Assembly: GCA_016214695.1 (NCBI GenBank)
Contig: JACRNY010000006.1
Location: 62,001-126,000 of the forward strand
DNA length: 64,000 nucleotides
Reading direction: 5' to 3'
DNA from: Nitrosomonadales bacterium
GTDB taxonomy: Bacteria; Pseudomonadota; Gammaproteobacteria; Burkholderiales; Gallionellaceae
The position numbers were made by a program, and so were the translations under genes. Shown in pieces: positions 3,297-21,771 of the stretch. Position 1 is the stretch's first letter, and the number at the start of each line of letters is the position of its first letter. Below the pieces are notes generated by a model. It had not been told where the DNA came from and made no database searches. It saw only the letters and a list, made by a program, of their open reading frames with translations.

Positions 3297-5525
3297 TTAA
3301 AATTCAAACACCAGCTCGGCCAGCAGACTGCGTCCCGGCATCAGGAAGTATGAATACGCCTTCCTGTCGAACAGATTGTTGATGGCAAGGTTGCCCCGCA
3401 CCTCTCCGGAGAAAGCGTAGCCCACTCTCGCATCGACCATGGTGCAGGAGTCGTAGCTGGTGGGCACCCCCTCGACCACATCGGTATTGCGCGCCGTCGC
3501 GAAGATATGGCTGACATAGCGCGCGCCCAGCCTGCCGGACCACGCTCCCTGCTGCGCCGTCATGCCGAGTCCGCCGATGTTCTTTGGCGAATCGGTCAGC
3601 CGCTTGCCCACGCTCAGGGGATCGGCGCTGTTCTCCAGCATGCGCGATTCGATATACGAGTAATTCGCCTCCAGTGCCAACCAGTCGGTCAGCCCGGTCG
3701 TCGCGGACAACTCGATGCCGCGCACCTTCGCGCTGCCGGCATTGATGCGCTGCGACAGGACCAGCGGGACGACCTGTTTCAGGTAGATTAGGTTGCTCAA
3801 GCGGTTCTCGAACCAGGTCACTGTCATCCTGGTATCAGCAGCAGCCCGCAGCTCGCCGCCGAGCTCCCATGTCGTCCCACGCTCCGGCTGCAGGTTGGGA
3901 TCGCCCTGGGTCGTCAGGCCGTTGATGGTCGAGGTCGTATACATGTCCTCGTTGGTCGGTGCACGGAAGGATCTGCCGAACGAAGCTCGCAGCGTAGTGG
4001 CAGCGTTGGCCTGATAGACAGCGGACAGTTTCGGGCTGAATGCTGAAGCGCCGCGAGAGGCAAAGACCGTGGTGCCGGCGGGTGCGGTGTTCTTGAAGTT
4101 GTCGCCACGCGTCTCCCAGCGGTCCACCCGGCCGCCCAGATACACGCGGAGGGCATCACCCATCTGGATCTCGTCCTGCACGAAGACCGCTCTCGTCATC
4201 GAATCGCCGTTGTAGCCGCTATTTACGCTGGTGCGCGAGTCCGGGTTGCGCCAATCGCTCAACGCATAGGCTCTCTGGTTCGCATAGTCGCGATGTAGCG
4301 CCACCCCGGTCACCAGAAAATGTCTGAGACCCACCGGGAAACTCAGTTGAGCCGTGGCATCGACTGCGCCGTTCGGCGTATCCATCAGCGTCCCCGCTCC
4401 GCCGGACCAGGTGGACGTTGCCCCGGCCTGGGTGAAACTGTACGCACGTTCGATGCGGGCGAGATCGATCTTCAGCAAATGATGCTCGCCTGCGGTTCCG
4501 TCGTAGCCGGCGAAATATCGCGTCGCCGCCTCATGCAACGGCGAGTTGTTGACGAAGTTGATCTCGCTCAGCGTGACGAGCTGACCATTGATATCCAACG
4601 GCCCGCTCGACACCGGCACGCCTGAGGCATCGCGGAGATAGGTATTGAAATGCGTATAGCCCTGGTCGATATTCTGGTGGGTGATGCCGGTGTACAACTT
4701 GTCGCGCTCGTTCAGGAAATAGAACAGTTTGGCCGTCGCATTGGTCGAGTCCCACGGCGTGGTTCCCTTGTCGCCCACCAGCCAGGCGGGTGCGCCGTCG
4801 CGGGTGGTGATCGGTTGCGCCCCGCTGACCGGTGTGCCGGGCGTTCCGGCGACCGCACTCCTGACAACAAAGTCGTTCACATAGCTGTCGCGGTTCTGCC
4901 GGCCGTAACCGACGACGACACCGAAACCGTTGTCCAATCGCTCGCGCCAATAGATGCTGCCGTCCTCGCCGCTCGCGTCCTGCCAGCCTTTCTTCACCCT
5001 GGCCGTGAGCTCATGCTTGTCCGGCTGCTTGGTGATGACGCTGATCACGCCGCCGATGGCATTGCTGCCGTACAGCGAGGAGAACGCGCCGGGCACCACC
5101 TCGACGCGTTCGATGTCCTCGACGAAGGGTATGCGCCAGTTCACCTTGCCCGAACGGCCGTCCTGCAGCGGCTGTCCATCCAGCAGGATGAGGGTCTTGT
5201 TCTGGTCGATGCCGCGCAGCGACATGCCGCTGGTACCCGAGGTTCCCTGCGACGAGCCGAGTGCGCCGTCGCGCAGATAGAGGCTCGGCACCTGGTCGAG
5301 CACATCGCCGAGGCGGGAGACGTTCTTCGTTTCGATGTCCCTGGCCGTGACCGCCGTCACTGCGGCTGGCGCATCGGCGAGTGTCGCTTTCACCCTGGTC
5401 GCCGTGACCACAACCTCATCCAACCCGGTTGCACCGATGCTTTCCGTCACTTCTGCGGCATTGGCCAGATTACAGATCAGGCCGAGTGCGAGTGACGCCG
5501 TTCCCCTGCATAACCGAGTTCTCAT
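3297..5525 (-). CDS. TonB-dependent outer membrane receptor
   Basis: A 742-residue outer membrane receptor. It has a signal peptide ending near ANA-AE, a TonB box-like DEVVVTATR, an N-terminal plug (DVLDQVPSLYL, LILLDGQPLQDG, VEVVPGAFSSLYGSNAIGG) and a beta-barrel ending in the aromatic residue of LVFEF. The plug resembles BtuB/CirA-type receptors, but the ligand (siderophore, heme, cobalamin or copper) is not evident; no cobalamin riboswitch was seen upstream. The dsrC-like gene follows after 12 bases. Between this gene and the divergent small membrane gene lies a perfect TTGAC-N4-GTCAA palindrome, so expression may follow the denitrification regulon. Confidence 0.9.
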   Translation of the reverse strand: MRTRLCRGTASLALGLICNLANAAEVTESIGATGLDEVVVTATRVKATLADAPAAVTAVTARDIETKNVSRLGDVLDQVPSLYLRDGALGSSQGTSGTSGMSLRGIDQNKTLILLDGQPLQDGRSGKVNWRIPFVEDIERVEVVPGAFSSLYGSNAIGGVISVITKQPDKHELTARVKKGWQDASGEDGSIYWRERLDNGFGVVVGYGRQNRDSYVNDFVVRSAVAGTPGTPVSGAQPITTRDGAPAWLVGDKGTTPWDSTNATAKLFYFLNERDKLYTGITHQNIDQGYTHFNTYLRDASGVPVSSGPLDINGQLVTLSEINFVNNSPLHEAATRYFAGYDGTAGEHHLLKIDLARIERAYSFTQAGATSTWSGGAGTLMDTPNGAVDATAQLSFPVGLRHFLVTGVALHRDYANQRAYALSDWRNPDSRTSVNSGYNGDSMTRAVFVQDEIQMGDALRVYLGGRVDRWETRGDNFKNTAPAGTTVFASRGASAFSPKLSAVYQANAATTLRASFGRSFRAPTNEDMYTTSTINGLTTQGDPNLQPERGTTWELGGELRAAADTRMTVTWFENRLSNLIYLKQVVPLVLSQRINAGSAKVRGIELSATTGLTDWLALEANYSYIESRMLENSADPLSVGKRLTDSPKNIGGLGMTAQQGAWSGRLGARYVSHIFATARNTDVVEGVPTSYDSCTMVDARVGYAFSGEVRGNLAINNLFDRKAYSYFLMPGRSLLAELVFEF

Positions 5526-5648
5526 CCGGACACTCCATTGTTTTCAAAAATGGGCTGGCTCCCGCCCGGGCCCTTGCGATACTTCTCCAGCCCGTGGCGC
5601 AGCTTATACCTGTGGATCGCATGTTCAAATACCGCACACTAAAACTCA

Positions 5649-5662
5649 TTGACCGGGGTCAA
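5649..5662. promoter_or_regulatory. FNR/DNR-type operator between TonB receptor and small membrane gene
   Basis: TTGACCGGGGTCAA has perfect 5-base arms (TTGAC-N4-GTCAA), the architecture of Crp/Fnr-family sites. On the minus strand a TATAAG (5608-5603) lies about 50 bases downstream of its centre. That would put the site near -60 of a TonB-receptor promoter, a class I position. It could also serve the plus-strand gene at 5769. Confidence 0.6.
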
Positions 5663-5768
5663 GGTATTCACATGCCGTATGTCTTCCAATTGCACTGACA
5701 GTCACAGGCCGGATGAAGCGGATCCGCCGAGCCGCTCGTCCCGGGTCTGCGATCGACAAGGAGAACTC

Positions 5769-6080
5769 ATGGATCAGCACAACAAGGAAAACGCGATCTT
5801 CAAATACCTGCCCTCGGGCCGGCAGCTGGCGATCCATGTCACCGCCATGTTCACGCTCTCCGGCCTGTCGGGGCCGCTGATCGGTCCGTTGCTGATCCAG
5901 TGGGTCAACCCGCCGCAGGCTTGGGGGATCGCGACCGGGATGGGTGACTACTCGCCGATGAGCATCGTGCTCTGGGGATTGGCTTTCACGATGATAGCGG
6001 CTTTCTTCTATACCGGATGGCTGATCGCCTTGGCGCGCAAGGGCTGGGAGGAAGCGCAGCCGAAGTCCTGGTACAACTGA
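5769..6080 (+). CDS. Small two-helix membrane protein, unknown function
   Basis: The 103-residue protein is not recognised. The ATG at 5769 is chosen over the longer ORF-track start (5649) because AAGGAG lies 5-10 bases before it and the upstream stretch contains the operator. Two hydrophobic segments are visible, LAIHVTAMFTLSGLSGPLIG (about 20-40) and MSIVLWGLAFTMIAAFFYTG (about 64-85), followed by a charged C-terminal tail. It shares an intergenic region and a Crp/Fnr-type site with the TonB receptor and lies next to the nor genes. A membrane role tied to anaerobic growth is inference. Confidence 0.7.
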   Translation: MDQHNKENAIFKYLPSGRQLAIHVTAMFTLSGLSGPLIGPLLIQWVNPPQAWGIATGMGDYSPMSIVLWGLAFTMIAAFFYTGWLIALARKGWEEAQPKSWYN

Positions 6081-6229: not shown

Positions 6230-8056
6230 TCAATGCGTCAGTTGAGCATACAGCAACGGCAGTTCGCGCGGCAGTTCCGACGGTTTGCGTATCACCACAT
6301 AGCCGTTGACGCCGAACAGGTGCGGCAGATAGCTGCTGCCTTTCTCGTCGATGGTGACGCAGAACGGCCTCAATCCCATCTGGCGCGCTTCGTGGATGGC
6401 GACACGCGTGTCTTCCACGCCGTAGCGTCCTTCGTACTGGTCCAGATCGTTCGGTTTGCCGTCGGTGAGGATGAGCAGCAGCCTTTGCGTCGCCGCCTGT
6501 CTGGCGAGCAGCCGGCTGGAATGGCGTATCGCTGCGCCCATGCGGGTGTAGAAACCGGGCTTGATCGCGGCGATGCGTCCGCGCACTTTGTCGTCATACT
6601 TCCCCTCGAATTCCTTGAGGATATGGAAACGGATGTTCTCCCGCTTGAGCGAGGAGAAGCCGTACAGCGCGAAGCGGTCGCCGGTGGCAGAGAGCGCTTC
6701 GGAGAACAGGAACAAGGTGTCGCGAATGACATCGATGACACGCGCCTCGTCGCTGATGTGGGCATCGGTAGACAGCGACAGATCTGCCAGCAGCAGGCAC
6801 GCCAGATCGCGGTCGCGGTATTGATGCGCCTTGTACAGCCCCTGTTCGCGCGCCTGCAGACCGCCGATGCGGTCGGCGCTGAATTGCACGCAGGCATCCA
6901 GATCGAGTTCGCTGCCGTCGAACTGTCCCTTGAACCACACCTTGGTTGGCGTCAATGCCGCGAACTGGCTGCGCAGGCGGCGCGCCGTGGCGGACAGATG
7001 TGCAGGCAGCGGCAGTGCTTCCGCGTCCCGCGCCAGCATGGGTTGCAAACGGCAGTGTGACGGTTGCAGGAGCTGCTTCTTGTAATGCCATTCCGGCAAC
7101 AGTATCCCCTCCCCCAGCGGACTATCATCGGATGCCGCGGAAGGCAGGTCGAGATCGAACTTCAAACGCGAGGCGGTGGTCTTGCCGTCCTGGGCCACGC
7201 TCAGGCGATCCAGATCTTCCGCGGGCTTGTCATCGGGCGGCTCGTCCTCCTCGGTGGGACGATTGACCTTGATGTATTCGGCCCAGCTCAGGATGCTCTC
7301 CGCGCGGAAGGACATCATGAAGCCGTCCTTGCCGTCGGGCATGTCGACACGCTCGGCCTGGTAACGGCGGTCTTTTTCATTCTTCCTGCTGTCGCCGCCT
7401 TCGTGACTTTGCGGTTCCCTGCTGTCGCTGCCGCCGCGCTCGCTGGCAGGCGGATCGGGATGCAGCCACAGGTACACCGGCTGCGGCGGACGTCTGGCCG
7501 GGGGCAGGCGCTCCACACTGCCGGGATGCAGCAGCGCGGCACGGATGGCTTCTTCCTGCTCGCGCTCGCCGCGCGGCAATCGTTCGGGGGCGGGACGCAT
7601 GGCAAGTACGGCATCGGCGAGTCGCTGATAGCGGCGTGCCAGTCCGGGAAAACGCTCCAGCACCTCCAGCGTGGCGCGCTGGTTGCGCACTATCCACGGC
7701 TGTGCGGATCCGCCGCCGGTGGCCGCCAACGCGATCAGCCAGAGATACAGGTCGCGGTTGAGCTCGCGGCGCGGGAACAGGTCGATCATGGCCGGCAGGT
7801 TCAAGGTCTCGCCATCCAGCCAGGTCAACTCGGTCTTGGTATTGCTGCCGGCGATGCGCTGCAGCAGGCTGCGTCTTGCACCATGCTGGGTGGCAGCAGC
7901 CGATTTCACGGCCAGCCCGCTGTCGCCGCCCCACGAACGGAACAGGATACCGGCGGTCTTGCCGATCTGTTCCAGCGTGACCGCCTCGGCCGGGTAGCGC
8001 CTGTCGGCCGCACCGGTGATGAGCTTGTGCCACAGCGCACCGACTTGCTCTTCCAT
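6230..8056 (-). CDS. norD: Nitric oxide reductase activation protein NorD
   Basis: A 608-residue NorD, partner of the AAA+ ATPase NorQ in maturing cytochrome c nitric oxide reductase, probably by inserting the non-heme FeB iron. The C-terminal third is a von Willebrand A domain with the MIDAS motif DLSLST and the later LLLILTDGKPND. The middle (about residues 180-290) is charged, proline-rich linker. It is the last gene of norE-F-Q-orf-orf-D, 11 bases after the polyferredoxin gene. Confidence 0.93.
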   Translation of the reverse strand: MEEQVGALWHKLITGAADRRYPAEAVTLEQIGKTAGILFRSWGGDSGLAVKSAAATQHGARRSLLQRIAGSNTKTELTWLDGETLNLPAMIDLFPRRELNRDLYLWLIALAATGGGSAQPWIVRNQRATLEVLERFPGLARRYQRLADAVLAMRPAPERLPRGEREQEEAIRAALLHPGSVERLPPARRPPQPVYLWLHPDPPASERGGSDSREPQSHEGGDSRKNEKDRRYQAERVDMPDGKDGFMMSFRAESILSWAEYIKVNRPTEEDEPPDDKPAEDLDRLSVAQDGKTTASRLKFDLDLPSAASDDSPLGEGILLPEWHYKKQLLQPSHCRLQPMLARDAEALPLPAHLSATARRLRSQFAALTPTKVWFKGQFDGSELDLDACVQFSADRIGGLQAREQGLYKAHQYRDRDLACLLLADLSLSTDAHISDEARVIDVIRDTLFLFSEALSATGDRFALYGFSSLKRENIRFHILKEFEGKYDDKVRGRIAAIKPGFYTRMGAAIRHSSRLLARQAATQRLLLILTDGKPNDLDQYEGRYGVEDTRVAIHEARQMGLRPFCVTIDEKGSSYLPHLFGVNGYVVIRKPSELPRELPLLYAQLTH

Positions 8057-8067
8057 TTACGGACACC

Positions 8068-9033
8068 TCATTTCTTTTTCCCCGGTTCATAGCAATGTAG
8101 GGGAATCTCGTCGTGATGGCCGAAATCGCGCACCGATTTGTCGAGAGCGCATTCGTCCCTCACCCATTTCAGCAGCGCACCGTCGGGATTGCCGCTCTGC
8201 ACCTGGGAACAGGCGTTGGCGCACTGGCCGCACTGGGTGCAGGTGAACATGAGACGCTTGATCTGGCGCGGCTTGATGCGCATCGGACAGACGTTGTCGC
8301 AGGCCGAGTTGCAATCGACGCACTCCTCCACACGCCGCCGGTTGAAGCCGATCACCATGGCTTTGCGGTTGCCCATCCAGGCGATGCTCTGGAACAAGCC
8401 GACGGCACAGGCATAGCGGCAGAACAGATGGCGGGCGAACATGAACTCGACGAAGAAAGCGAGCGTGCCGACACCGAGGAACACGCTCTGGTTGCGCGTC
8501 AGCGTGCCATGCCACAGGTTGCCGTAGATCTCCGCCGGAGAGATCAGATAGGTCAGCAGTGCGACAGCCCACACGAAGGCGAAGGCGACCACCAGCGGCA
8601 ACAACACCAGCCAGTAGCGCGGATCGGCGCGGGTGATGGAACCGTCGGCATTCTGTTCCGGCAGCGGGTGGCGATCCCACAGGCTTTGCCGGCCGATGGT
8701 GCGGCGCATGAGCTGGTTGACGGTTTCCACCACCGAGAAATGCGGACACAGCCAGCCGCAATACAGACGCCCGTATTTCCACGAGACCCACACGCCGAGG
8801 GCGATGGTGCCGAGGATGGGCAGGCCGCCGCGCAGCGCGATGTTGAAAGCCGCCTCCAGTGCGCCGATCTTGCCGGCGACGAAATCGTCCAGCCCCAGCG
8901 TCCAGTGCATACCGAGAAAGAAGAAATGCTTGAGATCGAGGTCGAGCCGGAACAGGTCGAACACCGGCGCCAGCAGGAACAGCATGAAGAATCCGGCCTG
9001 GGCCAACAGTCGCTTGCGCTGGAGCTTATCCAT
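8068..9033 (-). CDS. CcoG/NapH-like membrane polyferredoxin in the nor operon
   Basis: A 321-residue membrane iron-sulfur protein. Start chosen at MDKLQRKR (9033); the ORF-track extension upstream is in the preceding gene. About five hydrophobic segments are visible. Membrane-edge cysteine pairs YCGWLCP and FCRYACAVG match the CcoG/NapH/NosR family. Two ferredoxin-type motifs follow, CVDCNSACDNVCP and CTQCGQCANACS. It lacks the C-terminal Ig-like domain of full CcoG. CcoG is a copper reductase in cbb3 oxidase assembly; a similar redox step for NO reductase maturation is inference. It overlaps the upstream gene by 8 bases and is followed by norD. Confidence 0.82.
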   Translation of the reverse strand: MDKLQRKRLLAQAGFFMLFLLAPVFDLFRLDLDLKHFFFLGMHWTLGLDDFVAGKIGALEAAFNIALRGGLPILGTIALGVWVSWKYGRLYCGWLCPHFSVVETVNQLMRRTIGRQSLWDRHPLPEQNADGSITRADPRYWLVLLPLVVAFAFVWAVALLTYLISPAEIYGNLWHGTLTRNQSVFLGVGTLAFFVEFMFARHLFCRYACAVGLFQSIAWMGNRKAMVIGFNRRRVEECVDCNSACDNVCPMRIKPRQIKRLMFTCTQCGQCANACSQVQSGNPDGALLKWVRDECALDKSVRDFGHHDEIPLHCYEPGKKK

Positions 9034-9424
9034 CGCACTTCTTTCCGAGCAGCGGAAAAGTGAACGGCTGCCCGGCCATCGCCTTGGACAAGCCAAGCAC
9101 GCCCAGCAGCACCAGGGTGGAATGACAGGTGGTGAAATAGAGTATGACCACGATCCAGGTGTTGGCCGAGGTGTAACCGCCGAGCAGGAGAATGGCGAGG
9201 TTGGCGACCACCAGCAATATCCCCGCCCAGATGCTGGCAACAACAGTTTGCTGCAGATGGCATACGGCCAGTTGCGGCGCAGTCGCGCGGTGCCTGAAAT
9301 ACAGCCGCAACAGGATGGCGAAGCCCAGGCCGGGTGCCAGCAGCAGGTTGACGAGGTAAAGCACCTCCGCCGTCACCGCGAGGGTCTGTCCGGGCTGCCC
9401 GCTGTCATCTGCCGAAGCTGGCAT
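9026..9424 (-). CDS. Hydrophobic membrane protein of the nor operon, unknown function
   Basis: A 132-residue protein with three or four transmembrane segments (VLYLVNLLLAPGLGFAILL, TVVASIWAGILLVVANLAIL, TWIVVILYFTTCHSTLVLLG). The third contains a Cys-His pair (TTCHS) that could bind metal or heme, but it is not a CxxCH site. I do not recognise a named family. The gene overlaps norQ by 20 bases upstream and the polyferredoxin by 8 bases downstream, so it is tightly coupled in translation. Its job is probably in assembly or electron delivery for NO reductase (inference). Confidence 0.75.
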   Translation of the reverse strand: MPASADDSGQPGQTLAVTAEVLYLVNLLLAPGLGFAILLRLYFRHRATAPQLAVCHLQQTVVASIWAGILLVVANLAILLLGGYTSANTWIVVILYFTTCHSTLVLLGVLGLSKAMAGQPFTFPLLGKKCDG

Positions 9425-10187
9425 AGACGATCTCCATCAGTGCCTCGGCGGTCTCCTCGTCGTCGGTGAGCGGCTCGACGAGTGCGGCGCGGCAGGCATC
9501 CACCGGATCGAAGCCGCTGCCGATCAGGGTCGCGGTATAGACCAGCAGGCGTGTGCTGGCGGCTTCTTCCAGATCGTGTTCCTTGAGCGCGCGCAGGCTG
9601 TTGGCCAGATTGACCAGTCGTTTCGACAGCATGGCATCCGCGCCGGTCTCGCCGACGACGATCTGCTGCTCCAGTTCCGGCTCCGGAAAGTCGAAGCGCA
9701 GGCTGACGAAGCGCTGGCGTGTGCTGGGCTTCATGCCCTTGAGGAAATTCTGGTAACCGGGGTTGTAGGACACGATCAGCATGAACTCCGGCGGCGCCGC
9801 AAGTATCTCTCCGGTGCGTTCGATCGGCAGGATGCGGCGGTCGTCGGACAAGGGATGCAGCACCACGGTGGTGTCCTTGCGCGCTTCCACCACTTCGTCG
9901 AGGTAGCAGATGCCGCCTTCGCGCACTGCACGGGTGAGCGGGCCGTCGTTCCAGTAGGTCACGCCGTCGCCGATGAGATGCCGGCCGACCAGATCCGCGG
10001 CAGTAAGGTCGTCATGGCAGGCGACGGTATACAGCGGCAAACCGAGCCTGGCCGCCATATGCGCCACGAAGCGCGTCTTGCCGCAGCCGGTCGGTCCCTT
10101 GATCAGCAGGGGCAGGCGGTTGCGATAGGCGTGCTCGAACAGCTCGATCTCGTTGCCGTGCGGTTTGTAGAAAGGCAGCTCGCTCAT
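9405..10187 (-). CDS. norQ: AAA+ ATPase NorQ (CbbQ/NirQ/NorQ family)
   Basis: A 260-residue MoxR-type AAA+ protein that works with NorD to activate NO reductase. Walker A GPTGCGKT lies near residue 30 and Walker B GICYLDEVVE near residue 90; PGYQNFLKGMKPSTRQRF is typical of the CbbQ/NorQ group. Start set at MSELPFYK (10187) because the ORF-track N-terminal extension runs through non-conserved sequence. It follows norF after a 53-base gap. Together with norD it defines this as a cytochrome-c-dependent NO reductase locus. Confidence 0.94.
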   Translation of the reverse strand: MSELPFYKPHGNEIELFEHAYRNRLPLLIKGPTGCGKTRFVAHMAARLGLPLYTVACHDDLTAADLVGRHLIGDGVTYWNDGPLTRAVREGGICYLDEVVEARKDTTVVLHPLSDDRRILPIERTGEILAAPPEFMLIVSYNPGYQNFLKGMKPSTRQRFVSLRFDFPEPELEQQIVVGETGADAMLSKRLVNLANSLRALKEHDLEEAASTRLLVYTATLIGSGFDPVDACRAALVEPLTDDEETAEALMEIVYASFGR

Positions 10188-10240
10188 GAGGGAAACCTGT
10201 GTGTTGGATTTGTTGCAGTCTAAATCAAACGGCCGTGTTT

Positions 10241-10522
10241 TTACTTGATCGCGGTTAAGTAGGCGATGGTGATGAGTCCGGTCACCAGCAACAGCCAGCC
10301 CAGCACGATGCCGCGCCACAACCAGCGCGTACGGCGCAAACCCATGAAGTAGCCGGCCACCAGCTGCACCTTGACCGCGGCAGTGCCGAGCACGGCCAGC
10401 ATGACGGCGATGCCGCCCAGACCGGCTTCGCCGATGAGATAAGTAGTCACGGTCAGCAGCATCAGCAGCAACCAGACGTATGTGCAGGGGCGGATGAAAC
10501 GGGTTCGTTGCGTGGCGTCCAT
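10241..10522 (-). CDS. norF: NorF, small membrane subunit of the NO reductase locus
   Basis: A 93-residue protein with three hydrophobic helices, resembling prokaryotic cytochrome c oxidase subunit IV and NorF. Start placed at MDATQRTRF (10522) with TAGGGA upstream; the longer ORF-track start lies inside norE. NorF is needed for full NO reductase activity in some denitrifiers, though its biochemical role is unsettled. It lies 8 bases after norE. Confidence 0.78.
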   Translation of the reverse strand: MDATQRTRFIRPCTYVWLLLMLLTVTTYLIGEAGLGGIAVMLAVLGTAAVKVQLVAGYFMGLRRTRWLWRGIVLGWLLLVTGLITIAYLTAIK

Positions 10523-10530
10523 GAGTGTCC

Positions 10531-11118
10531 CTAATGGATCACGTAAACCAGCGGAAACAGGATGATCCACAGCAGATCGACCATATGCCAATAGGAAGCA
10601 CCGGTCTCCACGTCGGTATGGTTTTGCGCGCTATAGCCGCCCCGCCTCGCTTTAAGCATCACCGCCGCAAGGATCACCATGCCGAGGATCACATGCATGA
10701 AATGAAAGATCGTCAGCGACAGGTAGAACATGTAGAAGGTATTGGTGCTGAGGGAGATGCCGGCGGAGAACTTGTCGTGGAACTCAACCAGCTTGATGGC
10801 CAGGAAAATGCCGCCCAGAGCGATGGCAGCGGCGATCCAGCGCGCGCATACGCGCGATAACCCCTGTTTGATGGCCGCGACCGCGCGCACCATGAAATAG
10901 CTGCTGGTGATCAGCACCAGGGTGTTGATGGCGCCGGAAGAGATGTCGAGCTGCCGTTGCGATTCGTCGAACAGTTCCACGTTGTGCGCCCGCGCAAACG
11001 CGTAGGCGACGAAAAAGACGCCGAACGCCAGCAGTTCGGCGAAGATGAAGAACCAGATCGCCAGATCGCCGGGCGGCGTGGCGAGGATCTCATCCGGTGT
11101 GATCGTATCGATGGTCAA
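10531..11118 (-). CDS. norE: NorE, cytochrome c oxidase subunit III-like protein
   Basis: The 195-residue protein has five transmembrane segments and subunit III family features (LAIWFFIFAELLAFGVFF near the N-terminus, FHFMHVILGM in the middle, HMVDLLWIILFPLVYV at the end). NorE supports NO reductase assembly or activity in denitrifiers. The only reasonable start is a TTG at 11118, with no strong ribosome site. It follows a strong hairpin terminator just after norB, so norEFQ...D is probably expressed at a lower level than norCB. Confidence 0.87.
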   Translation of the reverse strand: MTIDTITPDEILATPPGDLAIWFFIFAELLAFGVFFVAYAFARAHNVELFDESQRQLDISSGAINTLVLITSSYFMVRAVAAIKQGLSRVCARWIAAAIALGGIFLAIKLVEFHDKFSAGISLSTNTFYMFYLSLTIFHFMHVILGMVILAAVMLKARRGGYSAQNHTDVETGASYWHMVDLLWIILFPLVYVIH

Positions 11119-11134
11119 AACAGGATATCCAGAC

Positions 11135-11161
11135 GAAAAAAAGGGGGCGCGAACGCCCCCT
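11135..11161 (-). terminator. Strong UUCG-loop terminator between norB and norE
   Basis: On the minus strand AGGGGGCG-TTCG-CGCCCCCT is followed by six T. This 8-bp GC stem with a stable tetraloop lies between norB (ends 11176) and norE (starts 11118). It should end or strongly attenuate norCB transcription. Confidence 0.85.
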
Positions 11162-11175
11162 CCCGAGGAACAGCG

Positions 11176-12564
<1,389 letters not shown>

Positions 12565-12596
12565 CTAAACCGTTGTGTGTCAGGGTATCTGCCGGA

Positions 12597-13022
12597 TCAG
12601 CCTTCGATGTTCGGCGGCCACTTGTTGGTGTCGATCTCCGATGTCCATTTCAGGAACTCGACGATGTCGTCCAGTTCCTGATCGGTCAGGTTGAATTGGG
12701 GCATCTGACGGCGGCCCGGTGCACCCGTGGGCTGCGACTTGATCCACGCCTTGATGAACTCACCGCCGCGACGTTTGTACACGTTGCCAAGTTCCGGTGC
12801 GAAATACGCGCCTTCACCCAGAATGGTGTGGCATCCGATGCAGTTGCGTGTTTCCCAGATGTGCTTGCCGCGAACGACGGAATCCGTGATGTTCTCGCGG
12901 TGATCCCGCTTGGGCAGGCCCCGTACTGTGTCGAAGGTCAAGGCGAGAAACAACAGGAAGAAAAACACCGCTCCCCCGTAGAATATGTTTCGCGCCATCG
13001 CCTTGGTAAACGTTTCGCTCAT
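12597..13022 (-). CDS. norC: Nitric oxide reductase cytochrome c subunit NorC
   Basis: A 141-residue membrane-anchored monoheme cytochrome c. An N-terminal helix (IFYGGAVFFFLLFLALTF) anchors it and CIGCH near residue 61 binds heme; RRQMPQFNLT contains the likely Met ligand. It takes electrons from soluble cytochromes and passes them to NorB, encoded 44 bases downstream. The ATG has CAGGAGG before it. A DNR/FNR-type box lies 150 bases upstream. Confidence 0.96.
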   Translation of the reverse strand: MSETFTKAMARNIFYGGAVFFFLLFLALTFDTVRGLPKRDHRENITDSVVRGKHIWETRNCIGCHTILGEGAYFAPELGNVYKRRGGEFIKAWIKSQPTGAPGRRQMPQFNLTDQELDDIVEFLKWTSEIDTNKWPPNIEG

Positions 13023-13171: not shown

Positions 13172-13185
13172 TTGACTTCAATCAA
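13172..13185. promoter_or_regulatory. FNR/DNR-type operator upstream of norC
   Basis: TTGACTTCAATCAA fits TTGAY-N4-ATCAA. If it acts at -41.5 on norC, transcription would start near 13137, and a TAATGT lies at the matching -10 place on the minus strand. On the plus side the -10 region is GC-rich, so norC is the likelier target. Confidence 0.7.
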
Positions 13186-16579: not shown

Positions 16580-17266
16580 TTGAACAATCCATTGAAGATC
16601 CCCGCTTTCCTCTCGCATATCCCCTTGTTCAGCGAACTGTCGCCCAAGGAGATCGAGCGCATCGCCCAGGGCACGCGCGAACTCCACCTCGCGCGCGGCG
16701 ATGTGCTGTTCCAGCGCGGCGACCCGGTCACCGGTTTCCATGTGATGATCCACGGCCAGGTCAAACTGGCTTTGACTTCACCGCATGGGGTCGAGAAGGT
16801 CGTGGAGTTGTTCGGCCCGGGCCAGAGTTTCGGCGAGGCGGTGATGTTCCTGGGAAGACCCTACCCGGTCTATGCCCAGGCACTGACGGATTCCCTGGCA
16901 CTGCATATCGGCAAGAACGTGATCGTGGGTGGCATCGACGGCGATCCGGCTTTCTGCCGCAAGATGCTGGCGGGACTTTCCATACGCCTGCACAGCCTGA
17001 TCCAGAACGTCGAATCCATCTCGCTGCGTTCCTCGGCACAACGGGTGATCGATTACCTGCTGCATGACCTGGTCGAGGTCAAGGAAGGCCTCGATGTCCA
17101 TATCAGCCTGTCGGCCAACAAGAACGTGATCGCCTCCAATCTCAACATCACGCCGGAGACATTCTCGCGCATCCTGCACAACCTGTCCGATGCCGGCCTG
17201 ATCAGGGTCGAGGGCAAGGATGTGTGCATCAGGGACATCGCCAGATTGCGCGCTTACGAGGAGTGA
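16580..17266 (+). CDS. Crp/Fnr-family transcription regulator, DNR type
   Basis: A 228-residue regulator. The N-terminal cyclic-nucleotide-like domain (about 15-125, with GQSFGEAVMFLG) is joined by a long helix to a C-terminal winged helix. The recognition helix SNLNITPETFSRILHNL contains the E..SR signature that reads TTGAY half-sites. No N-terminal Fe-S cysteines are present, so it is not a classical FNR; it resembles DNR/NnrR, which sense NO through heme. It starts with TTG, with TAAGGAG 5 bases upstream. Surrounded by nor, nir and nap genes with matching boxes, it is the likely regulator of this locus. Confidence 0.88.
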   Translation: MNNPLKIPAFLSHIPLFSELSPKEIERIAQGTRELHLARGDVLFQRGDPVTGFHVMIHGQVKLALTSPHGVEKVVELFGPGQSFGEAVMFLGRPYPVYAQALTDSLALHIGKNVIVGGIDGDPAFCRKMLAGLSIRLHSLIQNVESISLRSSAQRVIDYLLHDLVEVKEGLDVHISLSANKNVIASNLNITPETFSRILHNLSDAGLIRVEGKDVCIRDIARLRAYEE

Positions 17267-18330: not shown

Positions 18331-19239
18331 CTATTTCGCCGCGGTGATGTCTGCCTTGGCGTCTATCCCCAGCGTGTAACCCAGGGAGACATGGTGGAAG
18401 CGCCCCGCCGCGTGATTGGCATGGATGGCGAAGCCCATGTTGTAGGTCTTGCCCGAGGCCATGGCGATGTCACCCTCGCCCCCGCCCGCCAGTTTGCGCG
18501 TGAATGTCACGGTCCAACTGTCGCCGTCCTTCTTGCCTTCGGCACTCACCAGCGCCTTGCCGCCTTCCATCACGCGCTTGTCGGCCACATATCCGTCAAC
18601 CTTGGCACCCTTGCCGCTCTTCCACTGGATGAGGTCGAAATAAGTGCCGTTGGCGAGCGAGCCGCCGGGGACGTACTTGGTCTTCTTGTCGTCGGCACCG
18701 GGCATGGTGCGCGCATCGGTATGGCATGTGGCCCAGCACCCGGCCGCCAGACCGATCTCGACTTCCTTGCCCTTGTCGTCCTTGTAGATGACCTTGTTGT
18801 CCTCGAACATCACTGCCAGCTTGACGGGATTGTCCTTGTCCATCACCGTTGCCTTGCCGGAAGGTTCTTTCCAGTTGAAGCGCAGATAGAGGTTGCTGCC
18901 GTCGTTGGCGGCCTGCACGTTCACCATGATGATGGGCACCCTGCCACTGACCGGTTTGGGTTCGAGCTTCTCGCCGGCCAGTATCCTGTCCGCCGCGATG
19001 TCGATGTTCAGCGTCTTCTCGTTCTCGTGACAACCGATGCAGCGCTCGCCTTTCTTGGTGCCCTTGGCGCCGCCGTGCTCGGTTCCCTTCATCACCCATT
19101 CCATACCCGATGCACCGGGGTGGAACACCGCCACCTTGCGCACCGGCACCTTGCTCCAATCCGGGGCGGCCCAGGCCGTTCCCGCCATACCGGCCAGCAC
19201 CAGGCCCAATGCCGAAGCAGTCGTCAATACTTTATTCAT
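18331..19239 (-). CDS. nirB: NirB-type cytochrome c-552 (IPR019020-like heme-binding domain)
   Basis: A 302-residue periplasmic cytochrome with a signal peptide ending AWA-AP. One classical heme site CIGCH lies near residue 66. A second site, CWATCH, has three residues between the cysteines; similar CW..CH sites occur in the cytochrome c-552/ethylbenzene dehydrogenase gamma-like family. The order nirS-nirT-this gene matches the nirSTB order known from Pseudomonas stutzeri, where NirB is a diheme cytochrome c-552 (not the assimilatory NirB). The ATG at 19239 has GGAGG 6 bases before it; the ORF-track ATG (19245) abuts that site. Confidence 0.7.
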   Translation of the reverse strand: MNKVLTTASALGLVLAGMAGTAWAAPDWSKVPVRKVAVFHPGASGMEWVMKGTEHGGAKGTKKGERCIGCHENEKTLNIDIAADRILAGEKLEPKPVSGRVPIIMVNVQAANDGSNLYLRFNWKEPSGKATVMDKDNPVKLAVMFEDNKVIYKDDKGKEVEIGLAAGCWATCHTDARTMPGADDKKTKYVPGGSLANGTYFDLIQWKSGKGAKVDGYVADKRVMEGGKALVSAEGKKDGDSWTVTFTRKLAGGGEGDIAMASGKTYNMGFAIHANHAAGRFHHVSLGYTLGIDAKADITAAK

Positions 19240-19297
19240 GTTCATCCTCCGATAGGATTAGGTTGTCGAATCGATCATTCGATGATGTGCCGCTTGC

Positions 19298-19885
19298 TTA
19301 ACCACCTGCTTCTTCTTCCGTCATGCCTTCCGGCTTGTTGTGTGCGATGCCCTTGTGGCAGTCGATGCAGGTCATATTGTCGCGCTGTGCATTGGCATGC
19401 TGTTTCGCTGCGCGGTTGAGCTGCTTCTCCACATCCATACCATCGAAAGAGTGACAGTTGCGGCACTCGCGCGAATCCGAAGCCTTCATCCGCGCCCATT
19501 CGCTGCGCGCCAGCTTCAGGCGTTTGGCTTCGAACTTCTCTCTGGTATCGATACTGCCCGTGATCTTGCCCCACACTTCGCCGGAAGCCTGGATCTTGCG
19601 GATCATCTTGTGCGTCCAGTCCTTGGGCACGTGGCAGTCGGAGCACACCGCGCGCACGCCGGTGCGGTTGGAGTAGTGGATGGTCTTGGTGTATTCCTGA
19701 TACACGTTGTCCTTCATCTCGTGACAGCTGATGCAGAACTCCAGCTGGTTCGTCGCCTCCATGCCGGTATTGAAACCGCCCCAGAACAGGATGCCGCTAA
19801 TGAAGCCGACACCGGACAGCGTCAGCAGAGAGTATTTGACACTCGGGCTGCGCAGCTTTGCCCACCAGTTTGAAACGACCATCAT
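19298..19885 (-). CDS. nirT: NirT, membrane tetraheme cytochrome c (NapC/NirT family)
   Basis: A 195-residue quinol-oxidising cytochrome. One N-terminal anchor helix (YSLLTLSGVGFISGILFW) and four heme motifs CISCH, CSDCH, CRNCH and CIDCH make the standard NapC/NirT tetraheme arrangement. It lies 67 bases after nirS and likely feeds electrons to NirS. The nearby nap operon has no napC of its own, so it could also supply NapB-NapA. AGGAGG precedes two tandem ATG codons; the second (19882) has better spacing. Confidence 0.93.
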   Translation of the reverse strand: MMVVSNWWAKLRSPSVKYSLLTLSGVGFISGILFWGGFNTGMEATNQLEFCISCHEMKDNVYQEYTKTIHYSNRTGVRAVCSDCHVPKDWTHKMIRKIQASGEVWGKITGSIDTREKFEAKRLKLARSEWARMKASDSRECRNCHSFDGMDVEKQLNRAAKQHANAQRDNMTCIDCHKGIAHNKPEGMTEEEAGG

Positions 19886-19952: not shown

Positions 19953-21702
<1,750 letters not shown>

Positions 21703-21757: not shown

Positions 21758-21771
21758 TTGATATACATCAA
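21758..21771. promoter_or_regulatory. Perfect FNR-type operator for napDAGHB
   Basis: TTGATATACATCAA is a perfect TTGAT-N4-ATCAA palindrome. Centred 72 bases before the napD ATG, it predicts transcription starting about 30 bases upstream of napD if used at -41.5. Confidence 0.78.

Follow-up and report, generated by a model that had tools for sequence, protein, structure and literature searches.

A TonB-dependent receptor in a denitrification regulon of Gallionellaceae as a predicted heme d1 importer

Introduction

What does a TonB-dependent receptor import when its gene lies behind a regulatory box of the kind found at denitrification genes? The locus studied here, part of a 64,000-nucleotide stretch of a Gallionellaceae genome (hereafter the window), raises this question in a gap of 243 bp (5526-5768) between two divergent genes, one encoding a TonB-dependent receptor (ATG at 5525, minus strand) and the other a membrane protein of 103 amino acids (ATG at 5769, plus strand). 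A first-pass annotation had proposed that both genes appear to belong to the denitrification regulon and that the receptor might supply iron, heme or copper to the Nir and Nor enzymes.

One of these enzymes, the cytochrome cd1 nitrite reductase NirS, uses heme d1 as its cofactor, and to our knowledge organisms with nirS have been assumed to make their own heme d1. The Gallionellaceae pangenome paper describes nirS as scattered through the family (PMC10734462), and a global NirS phylogeny reports that the presence of assembly genes varies (PMC10999283); TonB receptors are mentioned in neither. No earlier report of heme d1 uptake was found in the literature searched, most subscription papers lying outside that search.

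Denitrification genes in the window

The features of interest are collected in Table 1. Besides these, the window carries NnrS-like genes, a DUF2249 gene, a hemerythrin gene, moaA and a gene for a NapC/NirT cytochrome; here and in the table, the names NorC, NorB, NorQ, NorD, NnrS, DUF2249 and hemerythrin were read from translations, without a Pfam or NCBIfam match. In the Crp/Fnr regulator, the recognition helix is of the ExxSR type (PETFSR) and N-terminal cysteines are lacking, a combination that, from what is generally known of the FNR/DNR family, presumably marks it as DNR-type.

Some neighbours are worth recording in their own right. The nor operon includes a gene for a NapH/CcoG-like ferredoxin membrane protein (8068-9174) in the norQ-norD interval, which is kept across the genus, and an EB_dh (ethylbenzene-dehydrogenase-like) heme protein (18331-19885) adjoins the NapC/NirT cytochrome and nirS. 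Several genomes of the genus have a second NorB type, about 41% identical to that of the window, directly preceding nirS and the TonB receptor.

Table 1. Coordinates of the receptor locus and of the denitrification genes and sites in the window
Feature	Position	Strand	Evidence
P0001, predicted outer-membrane importer of heme d1 (TonB-dependent receptor, 742 aa)	3297..5525	-	Pfam; NCBIfam; nirS linkage; clade-specific residues
Predicted -10 element GAACAT	5621..5626	-	spacing of 22 nt from the box (downstream); class II, with the box centre near -41.5 and the transcription start near 5614
FNR/DNR-type box TTGACCGGGGTCAA	5649..5662	.	genome site counts and conservation in relatives
Small membrane protein, 103 aa, end of nor cluster	5769..6080	+	six genus members; selection
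cNOR cluster norCBEFQ-(NapH-like ferredoxin)-norD	6230..13022	-	translations; Pfam/NCBIfam for ferredoxin and NorE; order conserved in relatives
FNR/DNR-type box between norC and divergent NnrS-like gene	13172..13185	.	site scan; same location in relatives
DNR-type Crp/Fnr regulator	16580..17266	+	Pfam cNMP_binding and HTH_Crp_2; translation
nirS, cytochrome cd1 nitrite reductase	19953..21677	-	PF02239, 496 bits; P. aeruginosa NirS alignment; nirS tree
Two FNR/DNR-type boxes upstream of nirS	21689-21702, 21758-21771	.	window site scan

The box and its promoter

The first-pass annotation had placed a perfect palindrome between the divergent genes. The box is indeed there, at 5649-5662, with perfectly matching arms (TTGAC/GTCAA) on either side of a core, CGGG, that lacks self-complementarity and leaves the 14-mer with two mismatches to its own reverse complement. 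TTGA-N6-TCAA sites number five in the 64-kb window against 0.46 expected. Those of the form TTGAY-N4-RTCAA occur just 13 times across the 2.66-Mb genome (about 0.001 expected in the gap), four of them inside the 16-kb nor-nir cluster of the window, and the box in the gap exceeds chance. The DNR consensus TTGATnnnnATCAA is established upstream of nir and nor genes (PMC1274295), and DNR would presumably bind the box in the gap.

Comparison with relatives shows what the box usually precedes. It is found upstream of all six small-protein orthologues and, in two more relatives that lack the small protein (G010 and G027), it also precedes nirS. Directly behind it stands nirS in six genomes (G025, G028, G029, G012, G010 and G027), followed on the same strand by the TonB receptor in G025, G028, G010 and G027 but not in G029 and G012. 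In the window genome (G000) and in G013, nirS is gone from the site and the box directly precedes the receptor. Towards nirS or the receptor, a NANNAT hexamer follows the box at exactly 22 nt in seven of the eight genomes, the exception being G028; because of this spacing, the box is placed near -41.5, as in a class II promoter, so that these seven genomes combine a TTGAY-N4-RTCAA site near -41.5 with a -10 element in the manner of a DNR/FNR-type promoter. Since the old nirS has been lost at the window site, the receptor gene appears to have inherited, and to use, the former nirS promoter.

Might the box instead serve the small membrane protein only, or nothing, with the receptor outside the denitrification regulon? 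It stands 113 bp from the small-protein start, and G000 and G013 have TCCAAT/TTTAAT at the equivalent site facing the small protein. Across the eight genomes compared, however, the hexamer position on the small-protein side shows no conservation, while the -10 on the nirS/receptor side is kept in seven of them, including G010 and G027 with no small protein to serve, which makes this explanation highly improbable. The small membrane protein itself, with six members (the window and five others) at 62-86% identity and a dN/dS of 0.2-0.3, is by these measures a real, conserved gene, for which profile searches of Pfam, NCBIfam and PDB gave no relative and PHROG gave only a match at chance level. 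It occurs in six of the seven genomes with the window-type nor cluster, among them G012 and G029, which have no receptor; by this distribution, it goes with the nor cluster rather than with the receptor.

Control of the receptor by Fur was considered and is unsupported: upstream of the gene, the best Fur-box match scores 11/19 against a shuffled mean of 10.4, and none rises above chance. Along with the class II spacing of the box, the use of this promoter by nirS in relatives and the position of the receptor directly behind nirS in 14 genomes of the genus, this strongly favours the earlier assignment of the receptor to the denitrification regulon, and we regard its membership as well supported by these sequence comparisons. 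A remnant of the nirS terminator was also sought in the window leader, where the hairpin scores no higher than shuffled sequences do (z -0.15) and does not count as evidence. Between nirS and the receptor of G028, by comparison, lies a strong, terminator-like hairpin (z -4.6), so that the two genes are not necessarily co-transcribed.

Receptor and heme d1 pathway within the genus

The genus sample comprised 34 genomes, 18 of them with nirS (weak matches in G020 are not NirS), and absence of the heme d1 pathway was tested by the known families TIGR04051, PF17805 and PF02239. NirJ above the family cut-off together with NirDLGH (PF17805) occurs only in G012 and G029, both of which also have NirF and NirN; we call such genomes d1-competent. 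In profile searches, the other 16 nirS genomes of the genus lack NirJ, NirDLGH and NirF, and NirN is present solely in G011. The window genome is one of these d1-less genomes: it has no PF17805 match and no NirJ above the cut-off, and NirS is its sole match to PF02239. It is 99.97% complete, and G028 is a single contig of 3,003,656 bases.

The receptor is present in all 16 d1-less genomes and in neither of the two d1-competent ones, so that the pathway and the receptor are completely complementary in this sample. Their exchange can be seen at the level of the locus: directly behind the box and nirS, where other genomes have the receptor, G012 and G029 carry the d1 operon.

G011 (80% complete) shows a variant of this arrangement, with nirS, the TonB receptor and nirN on one strand (L050:7714-13431), and with NirJ, NirF and NirDLGH not found. 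In this organism, dihydro-heme d1, the substrate of NirN, may also be imported and then finished by NirN.

The pattern beyond the genus

The survey was extended to 399 genomes of the order, each at least 90% complete, which were searched for the d1-domain family, NirJ and the receptor. This gave 16 further nirS genomes without a NirJ match. Two of these, G065 and G402, were rejected as d1-less, as they encode NirDLGH along with an additional d1-domain protein and most likely miss NirJ through assembly gaps; both are without the receptor, as predicted. G790, G691 and G791, each with a single PF02239 match at threshold, were likewise discarded as candidates, having proved d1-competent. The remaining 14 have no NirDLGH, and NirS is their only d1-domain match (f1: G294, G342; f10: G134, G199, G284, G356; f38: G073; f23: G058, G318, G341, G363, G406; f8: G256, G420).

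A TonB receptor lies near nirS in all 14, within 2 kb in 12 and at 6 kb in both f8 genomes, the association thus recurring in five families. The controls, 108 nirS neighbourhoods, came from 102 d1-competent genomes in the order and the phylum and mostly spanned about 8 kb per side, less at contig ends; none of the 108 contained a TonB plug domain. Within 2 kb of nirS, a TonB receptor is present in 26 of 30 d1-less against 0 of 102 d1-competent genomes (Fisher's exact test, about 1e-23, uncorrected for relatedness); counted by family, the contrast is 5/5 against 0/~40 (p about 8e-7, the number of families being approximate). Families f1 and f38 even contain both states, d1-competent members without the receptor alongside d1-less members with it.

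A screen of all ORFs within 6 kb of nirS, retaining families common to at least four d1-less taxonomic families and comparing them with 105 control loci, returned NirS (and shadow ORFs antisense to it), one small ORF, the TonB receptor and a few ORFs that lie at Crp/Fnr genes or overlap them. The small ORF is also found near many d1-competent loci, and the receptor is the only family absent at all 105 control loci (one receptor ORF with control matches is a stop-to-stop frame overlapping nirS).

Plasmids were considered as well, with 18 non-Thermus types listed as having close nirS matches, plus further Rhodobacteraceae records; Thermus was set aside. NirJ is on the same record as nirS in all but one, pTfr153 of Thiothrix fructosivorans. 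Here, a TonB receptor gene with an upstream FNR-type box lies in the denitrification island, 4.3 kb from nirS (L192:7500-17300); the absence of NirJ here refers to the plasmid record. The best match of this receptor in the compared set is the nirS-linked receptor of G073 (38.6% identity, 433 bits; next, 130 bits). The island is also rich in FNR-type boxes. On a Thermus thermophilus plasmid (L195:7917-10736), nirS is followed by a radical SAM gene of the TIGR04053 family, not the usual NirJ family, which possibly represents a different route to heme d1.

Could the d1-less genomes, too, make heme d1 by a pathway that has yet to be described, with the receptor importing something else, for example copper, cobalamin or iron? 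Absence was judged by known families only (TIGR04051, PF17805, PF02239), Thermus pairs nirS with a different radical SAM gene, and a relative of P0001 lies in a cobalamin locus (see below). In the neighbour screen, however, the TonB receptor alone consistently replaces the d1 operon and no other gene family does, and different families have recruited different receptor lineages; we consider this explanation quite unlikely.

The receptor protein

P0001 is a TonB-dependent receptor with a plug (PF07715, 92.5 bits) and a barrel (PF00593, 187 bits). Its best NCBIfam family is the heme/hemoglobin receptor TIGR01785, at 218.4 bits, below the cut-off of 316.85; it likewise falls short of the cut-offs for the vitamin B12 receptor BtuB (TIGR01779, 150.4 against 599.7 bits) and for TonB siderophore receptors (TIGR01783, 169.3 against 223.5 bits), and no copper receptor family (NosA/OprC) is among the best 25 of its 32 NCBIfam matches. 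The f23 and f8 receptors, on the other hand, exceed the curated NCBIfam heme/hemoglobin receptor cut-offs, and that of G058 (f23) can be aligned end to end with PhuR, the heme receptor of P. aeruginosa.

Four residues, H411, H673, K127 and R131, are specific to the nirS-linked Gallionellaceae receptor clade. The two histidines are invariant in its 15 nirS-linked receptors and missing from all 12 unlinked homologues, H673 also being present in three of four f10 receptors; they could be iron ligands. A model of the receptor, built with AlphaFold from three sequences, had a mean pLDDT of 28 and was discarded. In the receptor tree, the Gallionellaceae, f10 and f23 sequences form clades and those of f38 and f8 stand apart, which gives at least three separate clades, the exact placement of f38, f8 and the paralogues being unsure on their long branches. 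Receptors beside nirS thus seem to have been recruited several times.

Plasmid pGLOV01 of Trichlorobacter lovleyi encodes a relative of the receptor (33% identity; L190:6362-8575) within a cobalamin biosynthesis locus that has its own ExbB/ExbD/TonB, which suggests that the wider receptor group handles modified tetrapyrroles.

The family matches bear on a simpler explanation, namely that the cargo of the receptor is ordinary heme b or iron, destined for the many heme proteins of denitrification, and that its adjacency to nirS reflects only shared regulation. Denitrification is heme-rich, heme receptors are the best NCBIfam family of P0001, and the receptors of f23 and f8 are members of heme-receptor families. 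Left unexplained would be why none of the 108 d1-competent nirS loci has a receptor when the d1-less ones do, and why receptor and d1 operon replace each other at one site in G012 and G029; no Fur box, moreover, rises above chance. We therefore regard import of heme b or iron as unlikely, though it is the least improbable of the alternatives.

Origin of and selection on the present nirS

The nirS gene now in the window lies about 14 kb from the receptor, and that of G013 is similarly distant (14-16 kb for the pair). In the nirS tree, it groups with the nirS of a d1-competent genome, apart from the box-linked nirS of the sister genomes, which suggests that nirS was swapped for that of another lineage while the receptor and the promoter stayed.

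Aligned to P. aeruginosa NirS, the window protein has intact motifs around the histidines that we take, from general knowledge, to be the d1 ligand and the active-site residues. The dN/dS of nirS is 0.03-0.06 in d1-less pairs and 0.016 in a d1-competent pair, that of the receptor 0.10-0.18. These values indicate strong purifying selection, under which NirS is kept functional despite the absent d1 genes. They are hard to reconcile with NirS being a relic that persists without d1 synthesis next to a receptor by coincidence, a notion for which one could cite that denitrification by Gallionellaceae has seldom been shown in pure culture; with catalytic motifs intact, the receptor itself under constraint and linkage at 26/30 against 0/102, it is very unlikely.

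A proposed role in heme d1 uptake

Quite likely, in our view, the receptor is a functional partner of nirS in an NO/anaerobic (DNR-type) regulon and replaces biosynthesis by bringing heme d1, or dihydro-heme d1, into the periplasm. We infer both the transport itself and its ligand, the latter from the distribution of the receptor. The cell has NirS and none of the known enzymes that lead from siroheme to heme d1; other denitrifiers would presumably release heme d1 or dihydro-heme d1, the last precursor, for the receptor to bring into the periplasm at the expense of TonB energy. NirDLGH and NirJ are cytoplasmic, whereas NirF, NirC, NirN and the insertion of d1 into NirS are periplasmic (PMC13168839). 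As NirS is assembled in the periplasm, a receptor delivering heme d1 to this compartment would therefore suffice, and neither an inner-membrane transporter nor cytoplasmic synthesis would be necessary. The earlier idea of a metal or heme receptor supplying iron, heme or copper to Nir and Nor is too general, the distribution pointing to heme d1 and to NirS only.

Several observations weigh against heme d1 import. P0001 is below every curated heme-receptor cut-off and its nearest plasmid relative is in a cobalamin locus; the window and G013 receptors are 14-16 kb from the present nirS; and the f8 receptors, 6 kb from nirS, adjoin a HemN/HemW-like gene and could serve ordinary heme uptake, which makes the f8 cases weak support.

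On a broader scale, it is likely that heme d1 is a shared good in denitrifying communities; many nirS bacteria would have lost its synthesis, or never possessed it, and would repeatedly have taken on TonB receptors of separate lineages beside nirS that bring it directly into the periplasm. The window receptor would then be the first heme d1 receptor type to be recognised. If heme d1 is scavenged, nirS in a genome would no longer equal a self-sufficient nitrite reducer. How much NO and N2O is released would then hinge on community members that donate d1, and the known metabolic dependencies, auxotrophy for B12 and for heme among them, would come to include auxotrophy for d1. For a whole set of TonB receptors that are orphans at present, from iron-oxidising bacteria and other denitrifiers, heme d1 would also be a clear ligand to test.

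Comparison with known systems

A counterpart in genomic position is the nirF-DL-GH-J-N operon, which in G012 and G029 sits at the site of the receptor behind the box and nirS; it makes heme d1 from siroheme, however, and takes up none. BtuB (TIGR01779) is likewise a TonB receptor whose cargo is a modified tetrapyrrole cofactor, one that many bacteria obtain by scavenging rather than synthesis, but the window receptor is far from its cut-off (150 against 599.7 bits) and its distribution tracks heme d1 biosynthesis. PhuR, HasR and ShuA (TIGR01785/TIGR01786) share with it the plug and barrel of TonB receptors for an iron tetrapyrrole, and the f23 and f8 receptors pass the cut-offs of these families; the window receptor differs in its score (218 against 316.85), in having a denitrification promoter and no Fur box, and in its predicted cargo, heme d1, with use in the periplasm.

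A precedent for an outer-membrane receptor in a denitrification regulon is NosA, a copper receptor known from the NnrR regulon of Brucella (Lee 1991, as cited in PMC1274295). Like NosA/OprC, the window receptor would provide a cofactor component for one denitrification enzyme. Yet NosA gives copper to NosZ for the assembly of N2O reductase, whereas the window receptor pairs with nirS and is predicted to carry an entire modified tetrapyrrole, and its presence, unlike that of NosA, is tied to the lack of biosynthesis of its predicted cofactor.
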